Source: Steroidobacter sp.
Lineage (GTDB): Bacteria > Pseudomonadota > Gammaproteobacteria > Steroidobacterales > Steroidobacteraceae
Direction: 5' to 3'
Length of the DNA: 64,000 nucleotides
Assembly (NCBI GenBank): GCA_025929585.1
Contig: JAICPY010000011.1
Coordinates: forward strand, 1 to 64,000
Shown: in pieces, positions 6,999 through 39,604 of the stretch
Numbering within the stretch: the first letter of the stretch is position 1
Layout: every line of letters begins with the position of its first letter
The notes under the pieces: model-generated
Told to the model about the DNA's origin: nothing
Seen by the model: the letters and a program-made list of their open reading frames with translations, nothing else
The model's database searches: none
Position numbers and translations under genes: made by a program

Positions 6999-8348
6999 CT
7001 ATTTGTTTGCTTGAGCGTCGGCGGCAACGACATAGGCGGTATCCGTCGGGCCCTGACCGGTGATGTACACGACTGCCGGAAGATCGCGTGTGAAAGCGAA
7101 ATGCGGTTGATCCGCGGGTTCGGTGTAGAAGCCGCCCGGCCCGAGCGTGCGTGTCGCTGCCTCATCAGCCTCTGCACCGTATCCAAAGTGCCATTCGCCA
7201 GAGACCACGAGTGCCGTTCGGTTGTCGCCATGCGTGTGTGCGGCAATGCGCGTATGGGCGGGAACCCGGATCTCGAACGCGTACGGTCCGGGCATGTTTG
7301 GATTTCCCGAAAGAACCGTCGTCTGCACGCCGCTCAGCCCGGAAGTGCCTGCACGGGCGCCCTCGCGCGCTAGCGCATCTACCTCCGCTGATGTGAGCCG
7401 GGCCTGCGCCAGCGCACCGTCGCTATCCAGGAAAGCGCGAATAGCTGCGACGGTTGCTTGAGGTTGTTCCTCCATCAGCCAATGACCCGAATTGGCAATC
7501 ACCACCTCGCGAACGTCATCGGCGGCGAAACGCATGACGAAGGCCATAGTCGACCCAAACGAGTGATCGCCGCCGATGGCGAGCACGGGCATCTTCAGGC
7601 GCCCGAGTGCCGCCGACGCGCGGTTATCTATTGCGTCCTGATCGAAAGCCGCGAACTGCAGGAATCCTGCATGCATACGTCCCGGCTGCGCATACAGTGC
7701 CGCGTAGTGACGGCGAGCGGCTTCGGGGAACTGCGTCGGATCAGCGGAGAACTCGTTCCAGAATCGATCGAGATAGATACGCTCGCGCCCCGCGACCAGA
7801 CGCTCCATGTCCGGTCCGCCGAAACGGAAATGCCAAAGCAATGGGTTCTTGAGAACTTCTTCCCACGGGCCGATTCCAGGCACCGGCGCGTCCATGATTA
7901 CGAGCCGCGAGGTGCGGTCTTGGTGAGCCTGCGCGAACGCGTAAGCAACCATGTTGCCAATGTCATGGCCGACGACATCAGCGCGCTTGATATTCAGCGC
8001 GTTCAACACACCGGCGATGTCTTCCGCCTGGTTCTTCTTCGTGAAGCCGCTGGTAGCAAGCGCGGAAAGTCCCATCCCGCGCAGGTCCGGGACAATCACG
8101 GTGTGGTCACGCGCGAGAGCCGTGGCCAGCGGCACCCACATGTCCCCGGTATCGCCATAGCCGTGGATGAGCACGACTGCCGAGCCTGTTCCGCCAACGC
8201 GAACATGCAGCGTCGTTCCGTTGGTTTGGATTTGCTGTGTGCGAAAGCCGGCAGGAAAGTCGAAGGTCTGGGCCTGCGTCGGCGCGGCGAATGTCAACAA
8301 GCTTGCACACGTCCACGCAAGAGCGCGGACGACAATTTGTGTTTCCAC
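6999..8348 (-). CDS. Exported alpha/beta-hydrolase fused to a C-terminal cupin domain
   Basis: The 449-residue protein begins with a signal peptide (to about residue 26, PTQAQ). An epoxide-hydrolase-like alpha/beta-hydrolase domain follows (about 30-320), with HGYGDTGDMW for the oxyanion hole, an Asp nucleophile in GHDIGN and a catalytic His in NSGHWLMEEQP. A cupin domain (about 340-440) then shows the HTHGDN and PADQPHF metal-binding motifs. Asp in place of Ser at the nucleophile elbow points to an epoxide hydrolase or haloalkane dehalogenase mechanism. The fusion of two enzymatic folds in one exported chain is unusual. It lies between the AraC regulator and the isochorismatase-fold gene on the same strand. 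Substrate unknown. Confidence 0.82.
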   Translation of the reverse strand: METQIVVRALAWTCASLLTFAAPTQAQTFDFPAGFRTQQIQTNGTTLHVRVGGTGSAVVLIHGYGDTGDMWVPLATALARDHTVIVPDLRGMGLSALATSGFTKKNQAEDIAGVLNALNIKRADVVGHDIGNMVAYAFAQAHQDRTSRLVIMDAPVPGIGPWEEVLKNPLLWHFRFGGPDMERLVAGRERIYLDRFWNEFSADPTQFPEAARRHYAALYAQPGRMHAGFLQFAAFDQDAIDNRASAALGRLKMPVLAIGGDHSFGSTMAFVMRFAADDVREVVIANSGHWLMEEQPQATVAAIRAFLDSDGALAQARLTSAEVDALAREGARAGTSGLSGVQTTVLSGNPNMPGPYAFEIRVPAHTRIAAHTHGDNRTALVVSGEWHFGYGAEADEAATRTLGPGGFYTEPADQPHFAFTRDLPAVVYITGQGPTDTAYVVAADAQANK

Positions 8349-8451
8349 CGAAGTTACTCCCTTGAGGACTGAAGTGCCGAGCGAGTTTGGCCGCAGGCAC
8401 TAGGGAGTTATTGCAGGTTACCGCCGACTCTTCGCGAAATCCGCCGCGCGA

Positions 8452-9357
8452 TCATTGAACTTGTTTGCGCCAGGCGCCGGGGCTCGCGCCGACGATGCTC
8501 GTGAATACGCGCGTGAAATGGCTCTGGTCCGCAAAGCCGCAAGCAGCGGCGACGTCTGTCAGCGAAAAATCCGCATCGCGCAGCAACAATTTGGCGCGCA
8601 GCACCCGTTGCAGCAACAACCAGCGATGCGGCGGCGTCCCCACGCTCTGTTTGAACGCACGAGCGAAATAGTTCGGCGAAAGGCCGCATGCGTTCGCGGG
8701 TTCGGACAGCGGAATGTCCTCGCACAGCCGTGCGATCATGAGCTCGGTGGCGCAGCGGACCTGCCATGGCGCCAATCCGCCGCGCCTGCTGTATGAGGGC
8801 AGCCGCATGCGGCCGAAGGCGACAGCGAAGTAGGTGTGCGTCGCCATCAGCAGGTGATCCGCATACATCGCACCCATCTCGTGCGGATGCTCGAGTGCAG
8901 GCAACAGCGCTTGTCCCAAATGCCAGACCGTAGGATCGAACACGCCGCGTTCGCAAGTGAGCGTATCGATGCGCGGCGCGCCCTGCTCGTCGGTGATTTC
9001 GTTGAGCGCGGCGCGCGACACGTAGAAGTGCATCACGTCGAACGGACTTTGAAGATTGGCGGTCGGCTCCTGCTCGAGATCAACAATGCTGGTTGTTCTG
9101 GCGCCATAACCGCCGCGATAGACGGAACGCCCGGCAATGAACAGCTCGCGCTTGGGCGAGTCTCTCAGTTGCAGTAGAACTGAGAACGCCCGTTCGGGCG
9201 GTAGCGGAGACGTCAGACCATGTCCGGGCGTGTCACGCCGAATGCGAGTCACCGCGAGCTTGGACTTGCGCACAGCGGTGGTGACTAGATGCGAGCTCGC
9301 GTCGGACCGGAAGTACTTCGCGAGGCCATCGCCGTAGGCACCGGACGCCCGCTGCAT
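8452..9357 (-). CDS. AraC-family transcriptional regulator
   Basis: This 301-residue regulator has an N-terminal ligand-sensing region of about 190 residues and a C-terminal pair of helix-turn-helix motifs. The first is around the LSEPANACGLSPNYFARAFK segment, and the second ends CGFADQSHFTRVF, the AraC hallmark. It lies 103 nt upstream of the hydrolase-cupin gene on the same strand and is the obvious candidate to regulate it. The effector cannot be inferred. Confidence 0.9.
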   Translation of the reverse strand: MQRASGAYGDGLAKYFRSDASSHLVTTAVRKSKLAVTRIRRDTPGHGLTSPLPPERAFSVLLQLRDSPKRELFIAGRSVYRGGYGARTTSIVDLEQEPTANLQSPFDVMHFYVSRAALNEITDEQGAPRIDTLTCERGVFDPTVWHLGQALLPALEHPHEMGAMYADHLLMATHTYFAVAFGRMRLPSYSRRGGLAPWQVRCATELMIARLCEDIPLSEPANACGLSPNYFARAFKQSVGTPPHRWLLLQRVLRAKLLLRDADFSLTDVAAACGFADQSHFTRVFTSIVGASPGAWRKQVQ

Positions 9358-27365: not shown

Positions 27366-28703
27366 CTAGGCTTGGTTGAGCTTCGACTTGAGAATTCTGG
27401 CGATGTCGCTCCATGGAACTTCCGATTGCGGCGCCTCGACTCGCAGCGACTTCAGACCGATGACTTGCTTGTCGGTTTCAGAGTCGCCGAGCACTAGCGC
27501 AAATTGCGCACCGCTGTTGTCCGCGCGCTTTAATTGCGATTTGAAACTGCCTGCTCCGCAATTCGTTTCGATGTGCATTCGAGGTAGCTCATCCCGCAGT
27601 CTCTCCGCCAACATCAAACCAGCGGCTTCGGCCCGCTCGCCTGCAATCACGAGATAGACATCCGGCACGGCATCCGGGGTTTGCCCTTTCTGCACCTTGA
27701 GCAGCTCAACGAGCCGCTCCTGCCCTAAAGCCCAACCCACGGCCGGCGTGCTCTTACCGCCCAATTGGGCCACCAGTCCATCGTAGCGTCCCCCAGAACA
27801 GACAGCGCCCTGGGAGCCAAGTTCGCTCGTGACCCATTCGAAAACGGTGTGCGTGTAGTAGTCCAAGCCCCGAACCAGGCGAGGATTGACCACGTAGCGA
27901 ATTCCGACGGCATCCAAATGCTTGCACAAGCCGTCGAAATGCCGGCGCGAAGGAACGTCGAGATACTCGGTGAGCACCGGTGCTGCGGCGATCAGGCCTT
28001 GCAGATCCGGGTTTTTGCTATCCAGGATGCGCAGCGGATTACCTTCCAAGCGCTTCAAGCTATCCGGGTCCAATCGCGATTTATGCGCCGAGAAATAATT
28101 GACCAGTTGTTCGCGATACGCGCGGCGGGATTCCGGGGTCCCCAAGGAATTCAGATTCAATTCCACTCGCTCGACGCCGAGGCGATTCAGTAACCGCGCG
28201 CTCAGCATGATCAATTCCGCGTCGATGTCGGGCCCAGCGAAGCCGAACGCTTCGACGTCGATCTGGTAGAACTGACGAAAGCGGCCGCGTTGCGGTTTCT
28301 CGTGGCGAAACATCGGGCCCGAGCACCAGACACGCTGACGTTGATTGTGTAGCAATCCATTCGAGATCATCGCTCGCACGATTCCGGCTGTGGCTTCTGG
28401 CCGCAGCGTCAGCGAATCGCCGCCCGGATCTTCGAACGTGAACATCTCTTTCTGCACGATGTCGGTGAACTCACCGATCGAGCGCTTGAACAAGGCCGTG
28501 TGCTCCACGATCGGAACACGAATCTCGCGGTAAGCGTACGCAGCGAACAACTCACGAGCGATGCCCTCCAGCCGATGCCAAGCGGCAATCTCACTCGGCA
28601 GCACGTCGTTCATGCCGCGGGGAGGCTGGATTTGTAGGGGTGCCGGCGTGTCCAAGTCGTCGCTCTTCAAAGTCGCTTCACAGTACTGGGCGGGGGTGAT
28701 CAA
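27366..28703 (-). CDS. hisS: Histidyl-tRNA synthetase
   Basis: HisS charges tRNA-His. The 445-residue class-II synthetase shows RGMNDVLP near the start, motif 2 with RHEKPQRGRFRQFYQID, the histidine-specific RGLDYYTHTVFEW and motif 3 in GWALGQERL, followed by the anticodon-binding domain. No ATG occurs before the Met of RGMNDV, so translation must start at TTG 28703 or a later in-frame TTG. I keep 28703. In E. coli ispG lies between rodZ and hisS; here rodZ ends 10 nt upstream. Confidence 0.95.
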   Translation of the reverse strand: MITPAQYCEATLKSDDLDTPAPLQIQPPRGMNDVLPSEIAAWHRLEGIARELFAAYAYREIRVPIVEHTALFKRSIGEFTDIVQKEMFTFEDPGGDSLTLRPEATAGIVRAMISNGLLHNQRQRVWCSGPMFRHEKPQRGRFRQFYQIDVEAFGFAGPDIDAELIMLSARLLNRLGVERVELNLNSLGTPESRRAYREQLVNYFSAHKSRLDPDSLKRLEGNPLRILDSKNPDLQGLIAAAPVLTEYLDVPSRRHFDGLCKHLDAVGIRYVVNPRLVRGLDYYTHTVFEWVTSELGSQGAVCSGGRYDGLVAQLGGKSTPAVGWALGQERLVELLKVQKGQTPDAVPDVYLVIAGERAEAAGLMLAERLRDELPRMHIETNCGAGSFKSQLKRADNSGAQFALVLGDSETDKQVIGLKSLRVEAPQSEVPWSDIARILKSKLNQA

Positions 28704-28712
28704 GGGTCCGCA

Positions 28713-29603
28713 TCATCGCAGATTCCCGTTCGGCTCGATGACGAATCGCACCGACTCGCGTCCTTCGCGGCGCGGAATCGCAACAGGTTCTCCGTTCACT
28801 TCCAAGCTCACCGCGGAGACCGATCCCAAGTTGACTTGCAACGGCGGAATTCCAGTGAGCGTGCGGGTACGCCCTTCGCTACCCATCGCGAACATCAGTC
28901 GTGTGCCCTGTGCGTCATAAACCTCGGTCCACGAATCTCCGGCGAACGACAAGCGCACTTGAATCGGTTCTGCCGTCGCGCCTGAGGATTGCGCTGGTAA
29001 ATCGACGGGTGGAGTCTCGATAGCTGGGCTCTGCGCAGATTCCACGGGCGCAGGATTTGGGCGGGGTGTCTCGGGCGTTGTTTGCTCGGACGAGGGCGCC
29101 GCCACAGGAACCGTTGGAGCGACACTGCTCGTCACCGGCAGCCGAGTTGCCGATGTGAGTTGCGGCGTTGCAGATGCAATGCGGCGGTACGCGAAGAACT
29201 CGATCGCAGCCCAAGCGAGGAGTCCCGCGACAATCATCGACAGGACGATCCAGATTGGACCTTTCAAAGAGCGTCGTGGCGGCGGGAGCGGCGCTGCGAT
29301 AGCGGTTGGAATGGGATCCGCCGCAATGGGACGATCCTGAAGTGCCTCGTATTTCTCGATGATGGGTTCTACGGCAAGCTCGAGCAGCGTCGCGTATTTT
29401 CGCAGATGGCCTTTGGCGTACACGGGTGCGCCGAGAGCCTGAAAACGATTTGCTTCGATCGCCTCGATAACCCAAGGATCGAGGTGCAGATCCTCGGCCG
29501 CTTGTTGCACGCTGAGCGCACGACGCTCGCGTTCGCGCTTAAGCAGCGCACCCGGCGTTGATTCCGACTCGGGCTGCGCAGGAAGGCCCGGCGCCTGGCT
29601 CAT
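28713..29603 (-). CDS. rodZ: Cytoskeletal protein RodZ-like (HTH-TM-DUF4115)
   Basis: This 296-residue protein has a cytoplasmic helix-turn-helix of the RodZ type (about residues 18-85), a basic stretch RRSLK, one membrane segment (about 115-137), a Pro/Thr/Ala-rich periplasmic linker and a C-terminal DUF4115 beta domain (SFAGDSWTEVYDA). RodZ links MreB to the cell-wall elongation machinery. The ATG at 29603 overlaps the pilW stop as ATGA. The frame extends to 29735, but that would lie inside pilW. Confidence 0.92.
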   Translation of the reverse strand: MSQAPGLPAQPESESTPGALLKRERERRALSVQQAAEDLHLDPWVIEAIEANRFQALGAPVYAKGHLRKYATLLELAVEPIIEKYEALQDRPIAADPIPTAIAAPLPPPRRSLKGPIWIVLSMIVAGLLAWAAIEFFAYRRIASATPQLTSATRLPVTSSVAPTVPVAAPSSEQTTPETPRPNPAPVESAQSPAIETPPVDLPAQSSGATAEPIQVRLSFAGDSWTEVYDAQGTRLMFAMGSEGRTRTLTGIPPLQVNLGSVSAVSLEVNGEPVAIPRREGRESVRFVIEPNGNLR

Positions 29604-30367
29604 CCTGGATTGCGCTCCGATTCGACCAGCGCTCTGGTCTGATTCGCATTCGGATATTCGCGCTTCAAACGCTGCGCGTAATGTTGAGCGACCGCTGTGT
29701 TGCCCAGACCACGCTCGATGCGAACTCCGAGCCAAAGACTTGCCGGCGTCGTGCGGCCGACTTCCATGTAGCGCTCCAAGAAGGCGCGAGCAGACATATA
29801 GTTCTTCTGTTCATGCTCGATGTCTGCAAGTTGAAACAATGCCTCGGCAAAACGCGGGCTCACAGCCAATGCCTGACGAAAATGCTTCTCGGCCGCTGCC
29901 AGGTTCCCGCCATTGCGCGCGCACATCCCGGCGTTCACATAGGCCATTTCCGGCGTCTTGTACAAACGATTTTGAGCCGCTTGCAAGGCAAGCTTTTCGC
30001 CGCGCTCGAAACGGTTCTTCTGGCATAAGAACACGGCGTAGTTATTCTTGTATTCGGAGTTATCGCCATCCAACGATACGGCTCGCTGATAATGCGAATC
30101 GGCCTTATCGCTCTCCCCTAAGCGTTCGTACAATAGACCGGCAACGGAATGCGCCGCCGCATTTCGCGAATCTTGATCGAGCGCTCGATCCAGCTTCTCT
30201 TTGGCTTGTGCAAGATTGCCCCTGCGCAAATAGTCGACCGCGAGATCCAAATTGATCTGCGATGCCCGCTCAGGATCCGCAGGTGACTCCGCCGTCGAGC
30301 CGGTACTCACGCATCCAGAAACTGCAAACGCCAATGCCCCGATCACACCGGCTGTTATCCACTTCAC
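29600..30367 (-). CDS. pilW: Type IV pilus biogenesis/stability lipoprotein PilW (PilF)
   Basis: This 255-residue TPR lipoprotein has the lipobox AVSGC (Cys19) after a short hydrophobic signal, then about six TPR motifs from residue 35 on (LAVDYLRRGNLAQAKEKLDRAL is the first). PilW/PilF is the pilotin for the PilQ secretin in type IV pili. The start is GTG at 30367, which shares bases with the rlmN TGA (GTGA). The longer frame to 30448 would spoil the lipoprotein signal. Confidence 0.9.
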   Translation of the reverse strand: MKWITAGVIGALAFAVSGCVSTGSTAESPADPERASQINLDLAVDYLRRGNLAQAKEKLDRALDQDSRNAAAHSVAGLLYERLGESDKADSHYQRAVSLDGDNSEYKNNYAVFLCQKNRFERGEKLALQAAQNRLYKTPEMAYVNAGMCARNGGNLAAAEKHFRQALAVSPRFAEALFQLADIEHEQKNYMSARAFLERYMEVGRTTPASLWLGVRIERGLGNTAVAQHYAQRLKREYPNANQTRALVESERNPG

Positions 30368-31473
30368 GATTGCACCGCCACGGAGATGAGCTTGGAACCA
30401 AGACGCACTGTTGTTCTGTCGTTTACGCGTCCAACCAACTGACCGCACGCGGCGTCGATGTCATCGCCGCGCGTACGACGTGTCGTAGCAATCACGCCAT
30501 GACGATTCAGAATGTCGCGGAATCGCTCGATTGCCGCCGCACTCGAACGTCGATACTTCGTTTGCGGAAACGGATTGAATGGAATCAGGTTCAATTTCGC
30601 GGGTCGCCCTCGCAGCAACTCGACCAACTCGTACGCATGCTCGGGTTTATCGTTGATGCCATCCAGCATCACATACTCGAAGGTAATACTGCGCGCGTTC
30701 TGCTTCTCCACATACCGCCAGCACGCCTCGAGCAACTCCGCAATCTTGTGTTTGCGATTGATCGGCACGAGCTCATCTCTCAATCGATCGTTCGGCGCAT
30801 GGAGCGACACCGCAAGGGCACAGTTCGTCTCTTCGGCTAACCGCAGCATCTGTGGCACGAGCCCCGAGGTGCTCACGGTGACGCGGCGGCGTGAAATATC
30901 GAAGCCCAAGTCGTCCATCAGGATTTCGGTCGCGGGCACCACATTCCGATAGTTCGCAAGCGGCTCACCCATGCCCATGAACACGACATTCGTAATCACG
31001 CGGTCGCCGCCCGGCTGGAATCCCAGCTCGCGATTCGCGAGCCACACCTGCCCTACGATCTCCGCCGCGGTGAGATTGCGGTTGAATCCTTGTTGAGCCG
31101 TCGAGCAGAACGAGCAATCCATCGCGCAGCCGACTTGGCTCGAGATACACAAAGTGCCGCGATCGGGTTCCGGAATAAACACCATCTCGATACCTTGCGT
31201 GCCATCCATCGCAAGCAGCCACTTGCGGGTGCCGTCGGAGGAAACTTGCGTCAGGGTGATGGCAGGCGTGCGCACCTCGGCGACTTCCTTCAATCGCTCG
31301 CGGAAGCGTTTCGCCAGGTCGGTCATCTCATCGATCTGGCTCACGTTGCGCTTGTACAGCCATTTCATCAGCTGGCGCGCGCGAAACGGCTTCTCGCCCA
31401 TTCCTTCGACGAACGACTCGAGCTCGGCCCGAGTCAGGCCGAGCAGGTTTGTCTTGGATTCGGCGAGCGACAT
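30364..31473 (-). CDS. rlmN: 23S rRNA A2503 / tRNA A37 C2-methyltransferase
   Basis: RlmN is a radical-SAM enzyme methylating C2 of A2503 in 23S rRNA and A37 in some tRNAs. The 369 residues contain the cluster motif CAMDCSFC (C-x3-C-x2-C), FMGMGEPL for SAM binding and the C-terminal catalytic Cys in DIDAACGQL. The order ndk-rlmN-pilW-rodZ matches Pseudomonas and E. coli. Confidence 0.96.
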   Translation of the reverse strand: MSLAESKTNLLGLTRAELESFVEGMGEKPFRARQLMKWLYKRNVSQIDEMTDLAKRFRERLKEVAEVRTPAITLTQVSSDGTRKWLLAMDGTQGIEMVFIPEPDRGTLCISSQVGCAMDCSFCSTAQQGFNRNLTAAEIVGQVWLANRELGFQPGGDRVITNVVFMGMGEPLANYRNVVPATEILMDDLGFDISRRRVTVSTSGLVPQMLRLAEETNCALAVSLHAPNDRLRDELVPINRKHKIAELLEACWRYVEKQNARSITFEYVMLDGINDKPEHAYELVELLRGRPAKLNLIPFNPFPQTKYRRSSAAAIERFRDILNRHGVIATTRRTRGDDIDAACGQLVGRVNDRTTVRLGSKLISVAVQS

Positions 31474-31482
31474 GATGGGAGA

Positions 31483-31914
31483 TTAGCGCGTCCGCGGACA
31501 CAGATCCGCAGCGGCGAAGAAGTAAGCGATTTCGTTCTTCGCGTTCTCCACGCTATCGGAACCGTGGACGACATTCTCTTCGATGCTTGCCGCGAGATCG
31601 GCACGGATCGTTCCCTTGTCCGCCTTCTTCGGATCGGTCGCACCCATGAGCTCGCGATTCTTGCTCACCGCATTCTCGCCCTCGAGCACCTGAACCATTA
31701 CCGGGCCGGACACCATGTACTTAACAAGGTCTTTGAAAAATGGCCGTTCACGATGAACTGCATAGAAGCCCTCAGCTTGTGCTTGGCTCAGCTGCATCAT
31801 GCGAGCCGCGACCACACGCAAGCCAGCCTGTTCGAAGCGGCGATACACCTCGCCGATCAGGTTCTTCTGTACGCCATCGGGCTTTACGATAGAAAGAGTG
31901 CGTTCGAGCGCCAT
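31483..31914 (-). CDS. ndk: Nucleoside diphosphate kinase
   Basis: Ndk balances nucleoside triphosphate pools by phosphotransfer through a His. The 143-residue protein has [12 protein letters not shown] at the start and the active-site His in NVVHGSDS. Length is exactly typical. It leads the ndk-rlmN-pilW-rodZ run on the minus strand, with rlmN beginning 9 nt downstream. Confidence 0.97.
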
Positions 31915-32320: not shown

Positions 32321-32644
32321 CTACACCGTGAAGCTCTCTCCGCAGCCGCACTCGCCTTTGATATTCGGGTTGCGAAACCGGAATGCCTCGTTGAGGCCTT
32401 GCTTCACGAAGTCGACTTCCGTGCCGTCGATAAACCCAAGGCTTTCACGGTCGACGATCACTTTTACGCCTTGATCTTCGAAGACGAGATCCTCCGAGCT
32501 GATCTCATCGGCGTAATTCACGACGTACGCGAAACCCGAGCAACCGGTCTTTTTTACGCCCAAACGCAGGCCTAAGCCATGGCCTCGACGGCCAAGAAAG
32601 GTTCGAACTCGGTCTGCCGCGGCGGGTGTGAGCGAAATCGACAT
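32321..32644 (-). CDS. iscA: Iron-sulfur cluster assembly protein IscA (A-type carrier)
   Basis: This 107-residue A-type carrier has all three conserved cysteines, one in TGCSGFAY and two in the C-terminal GECGCGESF. Similarity to E. coli IscA runs the whole length ([13 protein letters not shown] start, [17 protein letters not shown]). The ATG at 32644 matches the family start; an ATG 15 nt upstream would add MTQGD. It follows the IscU-like gene after 91 bp. Confidence 0.93.
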
Positions 32645-32735
32645 GTCACCTTGGGTCAAGAATGAGCCTGGTACAGAGAATTGCGGCCTTGATCCCTACA
32701 GTCAAGGGCGCGCGTCATGCACTTTCGGTATGACT

Positions 32736-33125
32736 TCATGGGGCTGCCCGCCAAACTTTGGCAAGTGCTCGAATTGCATCCTCCAGTATCAGTAATCTGC
32801 CGCGCTTTTCCGGCGGGACACTCAAGTGATCGGCGAGCGCACGCCAGCTCCAATCACTCAGCTGCTCGACGGTGGCACCGATCAACTGCTCGCTTACCAA
32901 GGACGAAGCGGCTATGCAGTGAGGACATCCGAAGACACGGTATCGCACACTTTCGATCCGATCGTCCCTGATTCGTGCGCTCAACCAGAACTTTGCACCC
33001 TGCTCTGCGCTCCCGGCGGTGGCCGAGATCACGTCCCTTTGGTCCTCGAAGCGCCCGACATTCCGCGGGTTCGCGAAATGCTCTCGGACATCCGGGGAGT
33101 ATTGCGTTGCTGACTCTGGCAGCAC
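32736..33125 (-). CDS. IscU/NifU-N-like scaffold protein with missing cluster ligands
   Basis: This 129-residue protein aligns with IscU throughout: YSPDVREHFANPRNVGRF at the N-terminus, FGCPHCIAASSLVSEQ in the middle and ILEDAIRAL near the end. IscU binds its Fe-S cluster with Cys37, Cys63, Cys106 and Asp39 (E. coli numbering). Here only the second Cys is kept (Cys67, with an extra Cys70). The first site PACGD reads AEQGA and the third KIHCSIL reads KRGRLLI. The HscA-recognition LPPVK is VPPEK. The start is GTG at 33125, 7 nt after the iscS stop. The longer frame to 33374 lies inside iscS. Classical scaffold function is doubtful; it may be an IscS partner of another kind. Confidence 0.85.
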   Translation of the reverse strand: MLPESATQYSPDVREHFANPRNVGRFEDQRDVISATAGSAEQGAKFWLSARIRDDRIESVRYRVFGCPHCIAASSLVSEQLIGATVEQLSDWSWRALADHLSVPPEKRGRLLILEDAIRALAKVWRAAP

Positions 33126-33132
33126 GGCGAGA

Positions 33133-34296
33133 TTATCCAGCGAGACTTCGCAGGCGTGCGACCTCGCGATTGATCGCAGCGACGGCCGCATCGATCTCCG
33201 CTTGGTTCGTATAACGCCCCAGACTGAACCGCAGAGAGCTTTGCGCCAATTGATCCGAGCGGCCCAGCGCGCGCAGTACGTACGAAGGGGATTCTGAAGC
33301 GGACGCGCAAGCCGAACCTGTCGAGACAGCCAACTCGGACAAAGCGAACTGCAAGCTCTCGCCTTCGATGCCATGGAAACTGACGTTTAGAACACTACAG
33401 ACGCGCTGCTCTGGATCGCCGTTGAGCTCGACATCTCCACATTTACTGATGCCATCCCACAATCGTTGACGAAGAGCTTTGATGCGTGCGACATCAGATG
33501 TCAGCTCGCGCTGGGCGAGCTCGAACGCTAATCCCATGCCGACGATTTGGTGCGTTGGCAGGGTGCCGGAGCGAAGGCCGAGCTCTTGACCGCCGCCGAA
33601 CATCAACGGACGTAGACCCAGTGGCGGTGTTCTGCGCACATACAACGCACCGATTCCTTTCGGTCCATACACTTTGTGGGCGGTCATCGACATGAGATCG
33701 ACGTTCATCGCTTGCACGTCGAGCGGGATCTTGCCGACGCTCTGAGCTGCATCGACATGCAACAAAACACCACGCTCGCGACACAGCCGGCCGAATGCTG
33801 CGATATCTTGCACGACGCCGATCTCATTATTGACGTGCATCAGTGAGACCAGCTGTGTATCGGATCGCAACGCTTCACTCACTTGCTCGACGTGTACGAT
33901 TCCATCGCAGGCCGGCTTGAGATAGGTGACCTCGAACCCTTCCGCTTCGAGTTGCTTGAGCGTATCGAGCACCGCTTTGTGCTCAGTGCGCGCTGAAACG
34001 ATATGCCTGCCTCGGTCGCGATTGAACCGCGCCGCACCGAATATCGCGAGATTGTTCGACTCCGTCGCACCGGAAGTCCAAATGATGGAATCCGCGCGCG
34101 CGCCAATCGCGCTTGCGACTTGCGCCCGTGCCTTCTCGACCACGGCTCGCGCACGCCGGCCAAACTCATGTGTCATCGATGAGGGATTGCCTTGCAGCTG
34201 CACATCCCGCAAGCACTCGATCATCGCTTCAGCGACCCGAGGATCGACCGGTGTCGTAGCGGCATAATCCAAGTAAATGGGCAGTGTGCGATTCAT
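33133..34296 (-). CDS. iscS: Cysteine desulfurase IscS
   Basis: IscS is a PLP enzyme removing sulfur from cysteine for Fe-S clusters and thiolated tRNA. The 387-residue protein shows YLDYAATTP at the start, TSGATESNN, the Schiff-base Lys in AHKVYGPKG and the persulfide Cys330 in TGSACASAS. After that Cys only 57 residues remain against 76 in E. coli IscS, so the C-terminal tail that contacts IscU is missing. Its ATG overlaps the trmJ stop (ATGA). No iscR lies between trmJ and iscS. Confidence 0.95.
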   Translation of the reverse strand: MNRTLPIYLDYAATTPVDPRVAEAMIECLRDVQLQGNPSSMTHEFGRRARAVVEKARAQVASAIGARADSIIWTSGATESNNLAIFGAARFNRDRGRHIVSARTEHKAVLDTLKQLEAEGFEVTYLKPACDGIVHVEQVSEALRSDTQLVSLMHVNNEIGVVQDIAAFGRLCRERGVLLHVDAAQSVGKIPLDVQAMNVDLMSMTAHKVYGPKGIGALYVRRTPPLGLRPLMFGGGQELGLRSGTLPTHQIVGMGLAFELAQRELTSDVARIKALRQRLWDGISKCGDVELNGDPEQRVCSVLNVSFHGIEGESLQFALSELAVSTGSACASASESPSYVLRALGRSDQLAQSSLRFSLGRYTNQAEIDAAVAAINREVARLRSLAG

Positions 34297-35027
34297 GATG
34301 TAGCGGACTTACCAGCAGGTCTGCGACGCGCTTGCACCGCGGTTAGAATGCCGCGCAAGATGTTCATCTCGTTCTGATCGAGCTGCGCTCGATTGAACAG
34401 CCGACGAATGCGCGCCATCAAATGTCCGCCTCCCGTGCGGTCGCGGAAATCGATGTATTCGAGCACTTGCTCGATGTGTTCATACAGACGCGCCATCTCC
34501 TCGGCGCTTGCGAGCGGAACTTCCCGTGGCGCAGGCTCGGGCGCGCCCGGACGAACTGCTAGCCAAATCTCGTAGGCAAGCACTTGCACCGCCATGGCGA
34601 TGTTCAAGGAACTGTATTCGCCCTGCGTCGGGATCGTCACTAAGAGATTGCAACGAGCCAGCTCCTCGTTCGTCAAGCCGTAGCGCTCGGAGCCGAATAC
34701 GACCGCGACATGCCCTGAACGACTGTCTTGCGCGACCCGCGCCGCACACTCTCGAGGCTCGATCAAATCCCAGGGCAAATGTCGCTGGCGAGCACTGGTG
34801 CCGACGACGAGCCCGCAGTCGGCGATCGCCGCTTCGAGCGTCTCGAAGGTCTTCGCTCGCTCCAACAGGTCATCGGCACCTGAAGCACGCGCGGTAGCCT
34901 CGGCATGCGGGAAGCATTTCGGCCTGACTAAATGCAACTCGCTCAATCCCATGTTCTTCATCGCACGCGCACTGGCGCCGATGTTGCCGGGATGATTGGT
35001 GTCGACTAGAACGATGCGGATGGACAT
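34293..35027 (-). CDS. trmJ: tRNA (cytidine/uridine-32-2'-O)-methyltransferase TrmJ
   Basis: TrmJ is a SPOUT-fold methyltransferase acting on position 32 of tRNA. The 244 residues show IVLVDTNHPGNIGASARAMK for the first strand and helix, VFGSERYGLTNEEL and IPTQGEYSSLNIAMAVQ, forming the knotted SAM site. I take the ATG at 35027; the frame continues to 35105 through heptamer element A3. trmJ-isc and divergent suhB are conserved as in E. coli. Confidence 0.94.
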   Translation of the reverse strand: MSIRIVLVDTNHPGNIGASARAMKNMGLSELHLVRPKCFPHAEATARASGADDLLERAKTFETLEAAIADCGLVVGTSARQRHLPWDLIEPRECAARVAQDSRSGHVAVVFGSERYGLTNEELARCNLLVTIPTQGEYSSLNIAMAVQVLAYEIWLAVRPGAPEPAPREVPLASAEEMARLYEHIEQVLEYIDFRDRTGGGHLMARIRRLFNRAQLDQNEMNILRGILTAVQARRRPAGKSATS

Positions 35028-35271: not shown

Positions 35272-36069
35272 ATGCAGCCTTTATTGAACATCGCGATCCG
35301 CGCCGCTCGCCGCGCGGGAGAAGTCATCACCCGGGGAATGAACCGAGTGCATCGCCTGGATGTGCGTGCGAAAGGCCAGAACGATTTCGTGACTGAAATC
35401 GACATGCAAGCGGAGCGGGAAATCATCGAGATCGTGCGCAAGCACTATCCGGATCACGCGTTCCTCGCGGAAGAAAGCGGTGCAAGCGGCGAGGACGAAT
35501 TCGTGTGGGTGATCGATCCTCTCGATGGCACGACGAACTTCATGCATGGCTTTCCGCAGTTCGCCGTCTCCATCGGCGTACAACGCCGCGGAAGGATGGA
35601 ACATGGGGTCGTTTACGATCCTCTGCGGCAGGAGCTCTTCACGACATCTCGAGGCGAAGGCGCACAACTCGACGGTAAACGTATTCGCGTCAGCGGGCAC
35701 ACGGGACTCGAGCGTGCGCTCATCGGTACAGGATTTCCCTATCGCTCCAATCTGCATTGGCTCGATAACTACATGGACATGTTCAAAGCCGTCACGATGC
35801 AGACTTCCGGGATTCGGCGCCCAGGCGCCGCGGCTCTCGACCTGGCGTACGTCGCAGCCGGCCGCCTAGATGCATTTTGGGAGCTCGGACTGTCGCCGTG
35901 GGATACCGCGGCTGGCACGCTGTTGATCACGGAAGCCGGCGGAATGGTCGGCACTCTGAGCGGTGGCGAATACAAGCAGCAGGGCCACATCCTGGCAGGT
36001 AGCCCGAAAGTGTATGCAGCGCTGCTCGAAACCATTGGACCGTTCATTCCAGCGGAGCTCAAGGAATAG
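35272..36069 (+). CDS. suhB: Inositol-1-monophosphatase family protein SuhB
   Basis: SuhB is a Mg-dependent phosphatase of the IMPase family that in E. coli also acts with NusA in rRNA antitermination complexes. The 265 residues contain the metal motif WVIDPLDGTTNF, EESG for the second metal ligand, and the C-terminal LSPWDTAAG motif. Divergent placement from trmJ is conserved. Confidence 0.94.
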   Translation: MQPLLNIAIRAARRAGEVITRGMNRVHRLDVRAKGQNDFVTEIDMQAEREIIEIVRKHYPDHAFLAEESGASGEDEFVWVIDPLDGTTNFMHGFPQFAVSIGVQRRGRMEHGVVYDPLRQELFTTSRGEGAQLDGKRIRVSGHTGLERALIGTGFPYRSNLHWLDNYMDMFKAVTMQTSGIRRPGAAALDLAYVAAGRLDAFWELGLSPWDTAAGTLLITEAGGMVGTLSGGEYKQQGHILAGSPKVYAALLETIGPFIPAELKE

Positions 36070-37766: not shown

Positions 37767-38522
37767 CTATTGCCGCTCCTCGTCCAGCAACTTTCGCAAC
37801 TTCACGGGTGCCGGTGCTGTCGTCTTCTTTCGCAGGCGCATATTGAGGATCTCGACCAGCACCGAGAAGGCCATCGCGAAGTAGATGTAGCCTTTCGGAA
37901 TGTGGAAGCCGAAGCCCTCTCCGATCAGAGCCACTCCGATCAGAATGAGGAACGACAAGGCCAGCATCTTGATCGTCGGATGCCGGTCGACGAAATTGCT
38001 GATCGGTCCCGCCATGAACATCATCACGAGCACGGCCACGATGACTGCTGCGATCATGACTTCGACGTGATCCGCCATGCCTACCGCCGTAATCACCGAA
38101 TCCAGCGAGAACACGATATCGATGATCGCGATCTGAGTGATCACGCTCAGGAACGTCGCCTTGGCAGCGATGTGCTGGTCCTGCTCTACCCCTTCCAAGC
38201 TGTGATGGATCTCCATCGTGCTCTTCGCGAGGAGGAACAAACCGCCGCCGATCAGAATGAGGTCGCGCCCGGATACTCCGCGACCGAGGACCGAGAACAG
38301 GTCGGCGGAGAGCCCCATCACCCAAGTGATCGATAACAACAACAGGATCCGCGTGACCATCGCGAGCGCCAAGCCGATTGTGCGTCCGCGCGCGCGCTGG
38401 CTCTCGGGCAGCCGGCCAACGAGGATGGAGATAAAAATGATGTTGTCGATGCCGAGAACGATCTCAAGCGCCGTCAGCGTACCGAACGCTAGCCATACTT
38501 GAGGATCAGACAGGAATTCCAT
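37767..38522 (-). CDS. TerC-family integral membrane protein (short type)
   Basis: This 251-residue membrane protein has about seven membrane segments and two acidic membrane motifs, LEIVLGIDNIIFISIL near residue 20 and DIVFSLDSVITAVG in the middle, the paired TerC features thought to bind a metal ion. It lacks the CBS/CorC tail of YoaE-type relatives. Members are linked to tellurite resistance or Mn export, but the substrate here is unknown. Its start lies 101 bp downstream of a second TerC gene. Confidence 0.88.
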   Translation of the reverse strand: MEFLSDPQVWLAFGTLTALEIVLGIDNIIFISILVGRLPESQRARGRTIGLALAMVTRILLLLSITWVMGLSADLFSVLGRGVSGRDLILIGGGLFLLAKSTMEIHHSLEGVEQDQHIAAKATFLSVITQIAIIDIVFSLDSVITAVGMADHVEVMIAAVIVAVLVMMFMAGPISNFVDRHPTIKMLALSFLILIGVALIGEGFGFHIPKGYIYFAMAFSVLVEILNMRLRKKTTAPAPVKLRKLLDEERQ

Positions 38523-38623: not shown

Positions 38624-39604
38624 CTATCCGTCTACGTCGACTGGCGCTTTCTGCGAGCGACGCGCAGACATCACTGAGGCCAGGATTCCGATCGCTAAGA
38701 ACCCGACGATCGCGCCCAGAGAAACGGCGTGCGGAATTTCCATATGATGATGCAGCATCATTTTCACGCCCACGAAGGCGAGAATGAAGATCAGACTGAT
38801 CTTGATGTATTTGAACATGATCATCAGTCCGGCGATCGCGAAGTACAGGGCGCGCAATCCCAATATTGCAAATGCATTGGAAGTAAAGACGAGAAACGGG
38901 TCTTGAGTGACCGCAAAGATCGCCGGTATCGAATCCACCGCGAACACGACGTCCGCAAAGTCCACCAACAACAGCGTCACGAATAGTGGCGTAGCTGCCC
39001 TTGCGCCATCGACGATCGTAAAGAACCGCTCGCCATCGAGGCGATCCGTCACCGGGTAAACGCGGCGAGCCAGCCGCACCAATACGCTCTTACTCGGATC
39101 GAATTGCTCCTCTTCGCTCTTGAGCATGCGTGCGGCGGAAAGCAGCAAGATCGCGCCGAACACGTAAAACATCCAATCGAACGCATGAATTAGCGCCGCG
39201 CCCATCGCAATCATCGCGCCTCGCAAAACAATGGCGCCGACGATGCCCCAAAACAGCACGCGATATTGAAACTGAGGAGGGATCTTCATGAATGTGAAGA
39301 TCACCGCGATCACGAAGATGTTATCTACGGAGAGCGACCACTCTAGAAGGTAGCCGGTGATGTACTGAATCATGGCCTCCGAGCCGCTCAGCGAATCCGC
39401 GCCCGAACGCCACCCGAGCCAATGATGTTCGTACACCCCGTATACCAGCCCGCTGAAAGAAAGCGCGGTCAGCACCCAAACCAGCGTCCATCCGAGCGCT
39501 TGAGGAACCTTCATCTCCTTGGATTCTCGATGCAGAACGCCAAGGTCCAGCACAAGCACGCTGATGAAAATGACGAAGAATGCGATCCAGATGAGGAGAT
39601 TCAT
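38624..39604 (-). CDS. TerC-family protein, Alx-like
   Basis: This 326-residue protein has about nine membrane segments. LEWSLSVDNIFVIAVIF near residue 90 and DFADVVFAVDSIPAIFAVT near residue 215 carry the acidic TerC pairs. Length and the loop KSVLVRLARRVYP match the Alx subgroup, implicated in Mn export and alkaline response. E. coli alx is controlled by a yybP-ykoY Mn riboswitch. I searched 39605-39747 for that structure and saw only heptamer element E. Confidence 0.88.
   Translation of the reverse strand: MNLLIWIAFFVIFISVLVLDLGVLHRESKEMKVPQALGWTLVWVLTALSFSGLVYGVYEHHWLGWRSGADSLSGSEAMIQYITGYLLEWSLSVDNIFVIAVIFTFMKIPPQFQYRVLFWGIVGAIVLRGAMIAMGAALIHAFDWMFYVFGAILLLSAARMLKSEEEQFDPSKSVLVRLARRVYPVTDRLDGERFFTIVDGARAATPLFVTLLLVDFADVVFAVDSIPAIFAVTQDPFLVFTSNAFAILGLRALYFAIAGLMIMFKYIKISLIFILAFVGVKMMLHHHMEIPHAVSLGAIVGFLAIGILASVMSARRSQKAPVDVDG

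Follow-up and report, generated by a model that had tools for sequence, protein, structure and literature searches.

What does a protein do that has the fold and the place of the cluster scaffold IscU, and that has lost most of the residues with which IscU holds a cluster? The question is raised by a gene in the stretch of 64,000 nucleotides analysed here (the window; Steroidobacter sp., assembly GCA_025929585.1, contig JAICPY010000011.1), which encodes at 32736..33125 (-) an IscU-fold protein whose cluster site is gone, hereafter IscU*. The protein comprises 129 amino acids from a putative GTG start at 33123-33125, placed there from where its relatives begin; in the list of open reading frames, the same frame is also open upstream to an ATG at 33374, which would give 212 amino acids and overlap iscS.

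IscU* descends from IscU, and the original prediction of an IscU over its full length holds. The Pfam domain NifU_N spans residues 8-121 (70.4 bits) and is the only domain returned by a Pfam scan at E 1e-3, the SufE domain PF02657 being absent from that result. The predicted structure (mean pLDDT 94.7, from 31 aligned sequences) matches E. coli IscU in the IscS-IscU crystal (3lvl_A) with a Z-score of 19.5, 122 aligned residues and an rmsd of 1.6, and human ISCU1 (5wlw_D) with a Z-score of 20.0. Scores against the family models are 72.5 bits for IscU (TIGR01999, cut-off 192.4) and 29 bits for SufU (TIGR01994, cut-off 92.5), both below cut-off. A profile search against solved structures also gave weak matches of positions 53-81 to DsbA-type proteins (E 0.06-1.5), taken as reflecting the short CPHC motif and no more.

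The motif changes announced by the original prediction are found in the sequence and in the alignment: ACGD of IscU is replaced by EQGA, LPPVK by VPPEK and IHCS by RGRL, and the central site reads GCPH (CPHC) and carries the sole ligand cysteine left. In E. coli numbering, Cys37, Asp39, His105 and Cys106 are missing and Cys63 and Lys103 are retained; the loss of Asp39 and His105 and the retention of Lys103, the lysine of LPPVK, had not been part of the prediction. Gln and Ala occupy positions 37 and 39, and the zinc-ligand Cys/Asp set of SufU is thus gone. From the sequence and the alignment counts, Cys63 corresponds to Cys67 of IscU* (codon 32925..32927 (-)), followed by Cys70, the second cysteine of CPHC (32916..32918 (-)), a genus-level feature. 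Lys103 aligns with Lys107 (32805..32807 (-)) and is an IscS contact according to the accessible text of PMC2854127.

The gene lies between iscS and iscA. The cysteine desulfurase gene iscS (33133..34296 (-)), assigned from domain and model matches, ends four residues past RLR and contains the active-site Cys loop GSACASA. The A-type carrier gene iscA (32321..32659 (-)) has an uncertain start; the scanned part, 32324-32650, lies above one IscA cut-off (160 vs 150.6 bits), and the three cysteines of the IscA motif stand in its sequence. Directly upstream of iscS stands trmJ, encoding a tRNA 2'-O-methyltransferase (34293..35018 (-), the frame being open to 35105), and divergent from it, as in E. 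coli, a suhB-like inositol monophosphatase gene (35272..36069 (+)). On the other side follow ndk (31483..31914 (-), from domain and model matches), about 400 bases past iscA, and rlmN (30364..31473 (-)), which served as a synteny marker in the gene-order comparison. The gene order is suhB / trmJ-iscS-iscU*-iscA-ndk-rlmN-(TPR)-rodZ-hisS-(TPR_21, yfgM-like), as against suhB / trmJ-iscR-iscS-iscU-iscA-hscB-hscA-fdx-iscX-...-ndk-rlmN-rodZ-ispG-hisS-yfgM in E. coli K-12. Missing from the window locus are iscR and hscBA-fdx-iscX, and the gap between trmJ and iscS has no room for a gene. The locus is the ancestral isc locus, reduced in place. Two further observations concern its surroundings: rodZ is directly followed by hisS (27366-29735), without the ispG that separates the two in E. 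coli, and two adjoining frames (37767-38522 and 38624-39604 (-)) presumably encode TerC-type membrane proteins.

A SUF system is present elsewhere in the genome, as an operon of the order regulator-sufB-C-D-S-U-T. The one further NifU_N protein of the genome is its SufU, which passes the SufU model (157 bits; contig C222). The SufS of this operon (7238-8515 (-) of locus L328, contig C222) reaches its top score, 680 bits against a cut-off of 800, with the model for an encapsulin cargo cysteine desulfurase, exceeding its scores with the SufS models. Nothing over cut-off was found for HscA or HscB in this genome, which is 97.6% complete, and neither SufE nor TusA gave a match; MnmA is present.

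The same context extends over the order, soil and water bacteria represented here by 60 genomes (the window's own and 59 relatives) from 41 genera in 16 families. HscA exceeds its cut-off in 0/60, HscB in 1/60, SufB in 56/60, SufE in 8/60 (in none of the 37 genomes of the own family), TusA in 8/60 and MnmA in 54/60. In the sole HscB-positive genome, G004, HscB lies on a 4-kb contig that also carries an intact IscU; this contig is likely a contaminant, since its IscS groups with HscB-positive lineages in the IscS tree. The contig (L032, G004:C364:1-3965) bears an intact IscS-IscU-IscA-HscB set, and G004, listed with 5% contamination, has an IscU* too (L033).

Of the 60 genomes, 59, the own one among them, yielded a readable decayed IscU*, which disposes of the objection that a sequencing error had removed the cysteines. 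In ten genomes Pfam detected at most one NifU_N protein and no IscU*; the family profile recovered the protein in nine of them, and in G005 it was not found even by that profile. A contig scan with the single IscU* protein as query returned no matches. IscS accompanies IscU* on 57 of the 59 loci.

Cys37 and Asp39 are retained in 0/58 readable proteins of the order, His105 in 1/59 (G049) and Cys106 in 2/59 (G043 and G051). These counts give good support to the original claim that no cluster can be held in the classical way, and IscU* is very unlikely to be a cluster scaffold, as far as its residues tell. Columns of a 29-sequence alignment are on average 38% identical, and against this background position 63 is Cys in 57/59; position 62 is Gly in 57/59, and position 103 is Lys in 55/59 and Arg in two. 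Cys63 ranks fifth and Lys103 eighth among 123 columns. For 75 loci gathered with a pattern that contains GCPH, the Cys63 count is true by construction and was not used. Two members of the order, in G047 and G049 (L236 and L234), have lost both Cys63 and Lys103 and retain the protein, which is fused to IscS in G047.

The decay of IscU is real; it spans the order and reaches beyond it. In a draw of 229 gammaproteobacterial genomes, the IscU* profile matched 146 at 1e-9, three from the own order and 143 outside it, and the IscU site could be classified in 127 of the latter; of the 16 others one is a SufU (G131) and 15, which are NifU-type, weak or unlisted matches, were left out. The counts thus cover matched genomes, and the 83 of the 229 without a match may hold further decayed copies. 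HscB matched 97/229 genomes of this draw and SufB 134/229 at E 1e-60 or better (131 over cut-off). Sites with C37, D39, C63, H105 and C106 were taken as intact, the frame-shortened G091 being counted among them. Intact sites occur in 99 genomes, 93 with and six without HscB; decayed sites occur in 28, all of them without HscB and 25 of them with SufB. Among the 127 classified genomes none combines SufB, absence of HscB and an intact site (Fisher p 1e-22, kinship ignored).

In these 28 decayed proteins, Cys37 is lost throughout, and Cys63 is kept in 9, Cys106 in 8, His105 in 11 and Gly62 in 27. IscS is found at 24 of these 28 loci; at the other four none lies on the fetched stretch. In two proteins (L245 and L322, from G126 and G256) Cys37 is the sole ligand lost (S D C K H C), and their fetched stretches show no IscS; they could serve experiments as a half-way form, or may be a different paralogue. 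Over the 86 decayed proteins readable at both positions, each one with Cys63 also has Lys or Arg at position 103 (66/66), compared with 9/20 where Cys63 is missing. Outside the order alone the figures are 9/9 and 9/18 (p 0.01, kinship ignored).

The partner protein has changed as well. Past the RLR motif, IscS extends by 22-24 residues in all 82 loci of HscB-positive genomes, by a median of 8 (4-28) in 25 loci of HscB-negative, SufB-positive genomes, and by a median of 10 (0-28) in 85 unfused loci from the order and the GCPH pattern, a set that includes the intact one of G004; these are counts of loci, with some genomes entering twice, and a very short tail may be a contig end. The window IscS has four such residues. 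Three decayed genomes with neither HscB nor SufB (G082, G096 and G158) have short tails of 4-10, and among the six intact genomes of that kind the five with a readable IscS (G089, G137, G233, G273 and G278) have tails of 21-27. From these counts, cluster site, chaperones and IscS tail travel together. In 53 fused loci, IscU* stands where the IscS tail was; one open frame joins it to IscS in 15/59 genomes of the order and in 33/75 GCPH-pattern loci. The predicted structure of such a fusion contains both domains (pLDDT 81.1, pTM 0.70).

We take Cys95 of human ISCU to be the counterpart of Cys63 in E. coli IscU. Cys95 bridges to a lysine, given as 131 and 135, and to the catalytic cysteine of the desulfurase (accessible text of PMC8964421). 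For the E. coli proteins, the accessible sections of PMC2854127 describe that IscS touches IscU partly through its C-terminal helix (379-391) and that IscS without residues 376-404 fails to bind IscU; the IscU residues in contact are Tyr3, Tyr11, Gly38, Val40, Lys42, Lys59-Gly64 and Lys103. The same sections report that the IscU change K103E breaks the complex, that HscA also reads Lys103, and, as cited there, a disulfide between IscS Cys328 and IscU Cys63. The order keeps Lys103 despite HscA being gone. At the other contact positions, 41 of the 59 proteins have Tyr in place 3 (nine gaps), 47 have Phe in place 11 and 48 have Gly in place 38; the contacts Val40 and Lys42 are not preserved (Val in one; Lys in four and Arg in 19). 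The shortened IscS tail, belonging to the part that E. coli IscU needs, could mean weaker binding.

We slightly favour the reading that IscU* is a scaffold-incompetent IscU kept as a partner of IscS, probably taking persulfide on Cys67 as SufE does for SufS. In a genome that relies on SUF and has neither HscA nor HscB, IscU* would be kept as a dedicated partner of IscS and would occupy the old IscU site on it. The active-site loop of IscS would then pass a persulfide to Cys67 (E. coli Cys63), aided by Lys107 (Lys103), and IscU* would pass the sulfur on, tRNA thiolation (MnmA) and IscA being the candidate receivers. Binding to IscS can be inferred with good support; for the relay through Cys67 the chances are about even. 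Naming tRNA thiolation as the receiver is a guess, made because MnmA is present and TusA mostly not found. Persulfide chemistry on Cys67 is suggested by the pairing of Cys63 with Lys103 together with the survival of Cys63 in the order and its drift elsewhere. Against the relay stand the proteins of G047 and G049 without Cys63, and the contacts Val40 and Lys42 that are not kept; since cysteine-free members exist, Cys63 must moreover be dispensable for any role common to all. A more specific form, which we hold as a tentative possibility, is that of a Cys63-Lys103 sulfur-relay subunit made from the scaffold and in part fused to IscS; a fused polypeptide would then both release sulfur and carry it.

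Persulfide acceptor and regulator of IscS had both been proposed in the original prediction; they stand as the two best readings, between which sequence cannot separate. A regulator would be a non-catalytic subunit that fills the IscU site and stabilises IscS or gates its sulfur acceptors with no cysteine chemistry, and we consider this rather unlikely. It would fit the 15 of the 28 decayed IscUs outside the order that have no cysteine at positions 37, 63 and 106, most of them beside IscS, the dominance there of Gly62 (27/28) over Cys63 (9/28), and the two members of the order without Cys63; according to the accessible text of PMC11302665, moreover, binding of E. coli IscU and of TusA affects IscS activity, and the two compete. 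A mere spacer, however, would have no need of a cysteine that the order conserves far above the average column and always together with Lys or Arg at position 103.

It had further been suggested that CPHC might form a different metal site, and IscU* could in that case still use CPHC or the histidine to bind iron or zinc or to hold a bridged cluster. The motif is shared within the window's genus, and CP and CPH occur in 57/59 and 48/59 proteins of the order. The search for homologues with the same Cys pattern, however, found the second cysteine in 11/59 only, every one from the own genus, and apart from Cys63 no Cys column exceeds 16/59; HscA and HscB were not found either. As a general function of the family the CPHC site therefore falls, and metal binding of any kind is improbable.

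Fifteen pairs of related loci were compared. In 14 of them IscU* has a dN/dS of 0.10-0.31, and the remaining pair, with few changes, gives 0.49; the ratio lies above that of IscS in 14/15 pairs and above that of IscA in 14/15. These values disfavour a pseudogene, and IscU* looks like a functional protein that is constrained less than its neighbours. Least probable of all, and very improbable, is thus a relic on its way out, retained by chance or because it is translationally coupled within the iscS operon. The faster evolution and the drifting ligand positions outside the order would speak for this reading; against it stand the low dN/dS, the presence in 59/60 genomes and 16 families, the frames fused with IscS and the confidently predicted IscU fold.

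The differing sets of lost residues led us to expect many independent decays, an expectation given up on the IscS tree (165 rows, FastTree, long branches flagged), where the intact set needs one change, with a low support of 6. The varied decay patterns may therefore reflect drift after one event. On the same tree the fusion label needs at least six changes, of which the starred branches force one, and independent-pairs tests find one pair each on the starred branches, so that significance is out of reach.

In the PMC literature, which mostly leaves out subscription journals, we found no report of a cysteine-poor IscU family or of IscS-IscU fusions. The family shows what may become of the ISC scaffold where SUF remains: the loss of the intact cluster site coincides with that of the chaperones and of a full-length IscS C-terminus. 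The residues on the IscS-binding side partly stay, which amounts to a natural separation of two IscU functions, cluster holding and IscS handling, in proteins with one ligand cysteine as well as in proteins with none. NifU_N matches in such Gammaproteobacteria need not be scaffolds, and the natural IscS-IscU* fusions are ready material for tests of persulfide transfer.

Four known systems invite comparison. With E. coli IscU, IscU* has in common the fold, the full length, the place between iscS and iscA, several IscS contacts and Cys63; it differs in the lost C37, D39, H105 and C106, in the missing Val40 and Lys42 contacts, in a genome without HscA and HscB, in the shortened IscS and in a score far under the IscU cut-off. 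SufU, a zinc-dependent sulfurtransferase, is according to the accessible text of PMC8593673 a member of the IscU superfamily thought to move sulfur and not to build clusters; unlike IscU*, which fails its model, SufU keeps the Cys/Asp ligands, and it is a separate gene in the same genome. In tRNA thiolation, TusA receives its sulfur from IscS (accessible text of PMC11302665); it is of a different family and binds another site on IscS than IscU does (accessible text of PMC2854127). Its niche may be open in the window's genome, where it was not found, and yet IscU* is not simply its replacement, because the genomes of the order with TusA keep IscU* too. The fourth comparison is with SufE and CsdE, the persulfide acceptors of SufS and CsdA, which have an IscU-like fold. 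IscU* resembles them in having, throughout most of the order, one conserved cysteine beside a cysteine desulfurase. Structural comparison of its model gives Z 8.4 and an rmsd of 3.9 for CsdE (5nq6_B) and Z 7.9 and an rmsd of 4.4 for SufE (1mzg_B). IscU* differs in that no sequence relation was found, NifU_N alone being returned, and in that its partner is IscS and not SufS. If the tentative form with a Cys63-Lys103 relay subunit is true, a large lineage of Gammaproteobacteria would have remodelled its scaffold into an IscS-side counterpart of the SufS-SufE pair.
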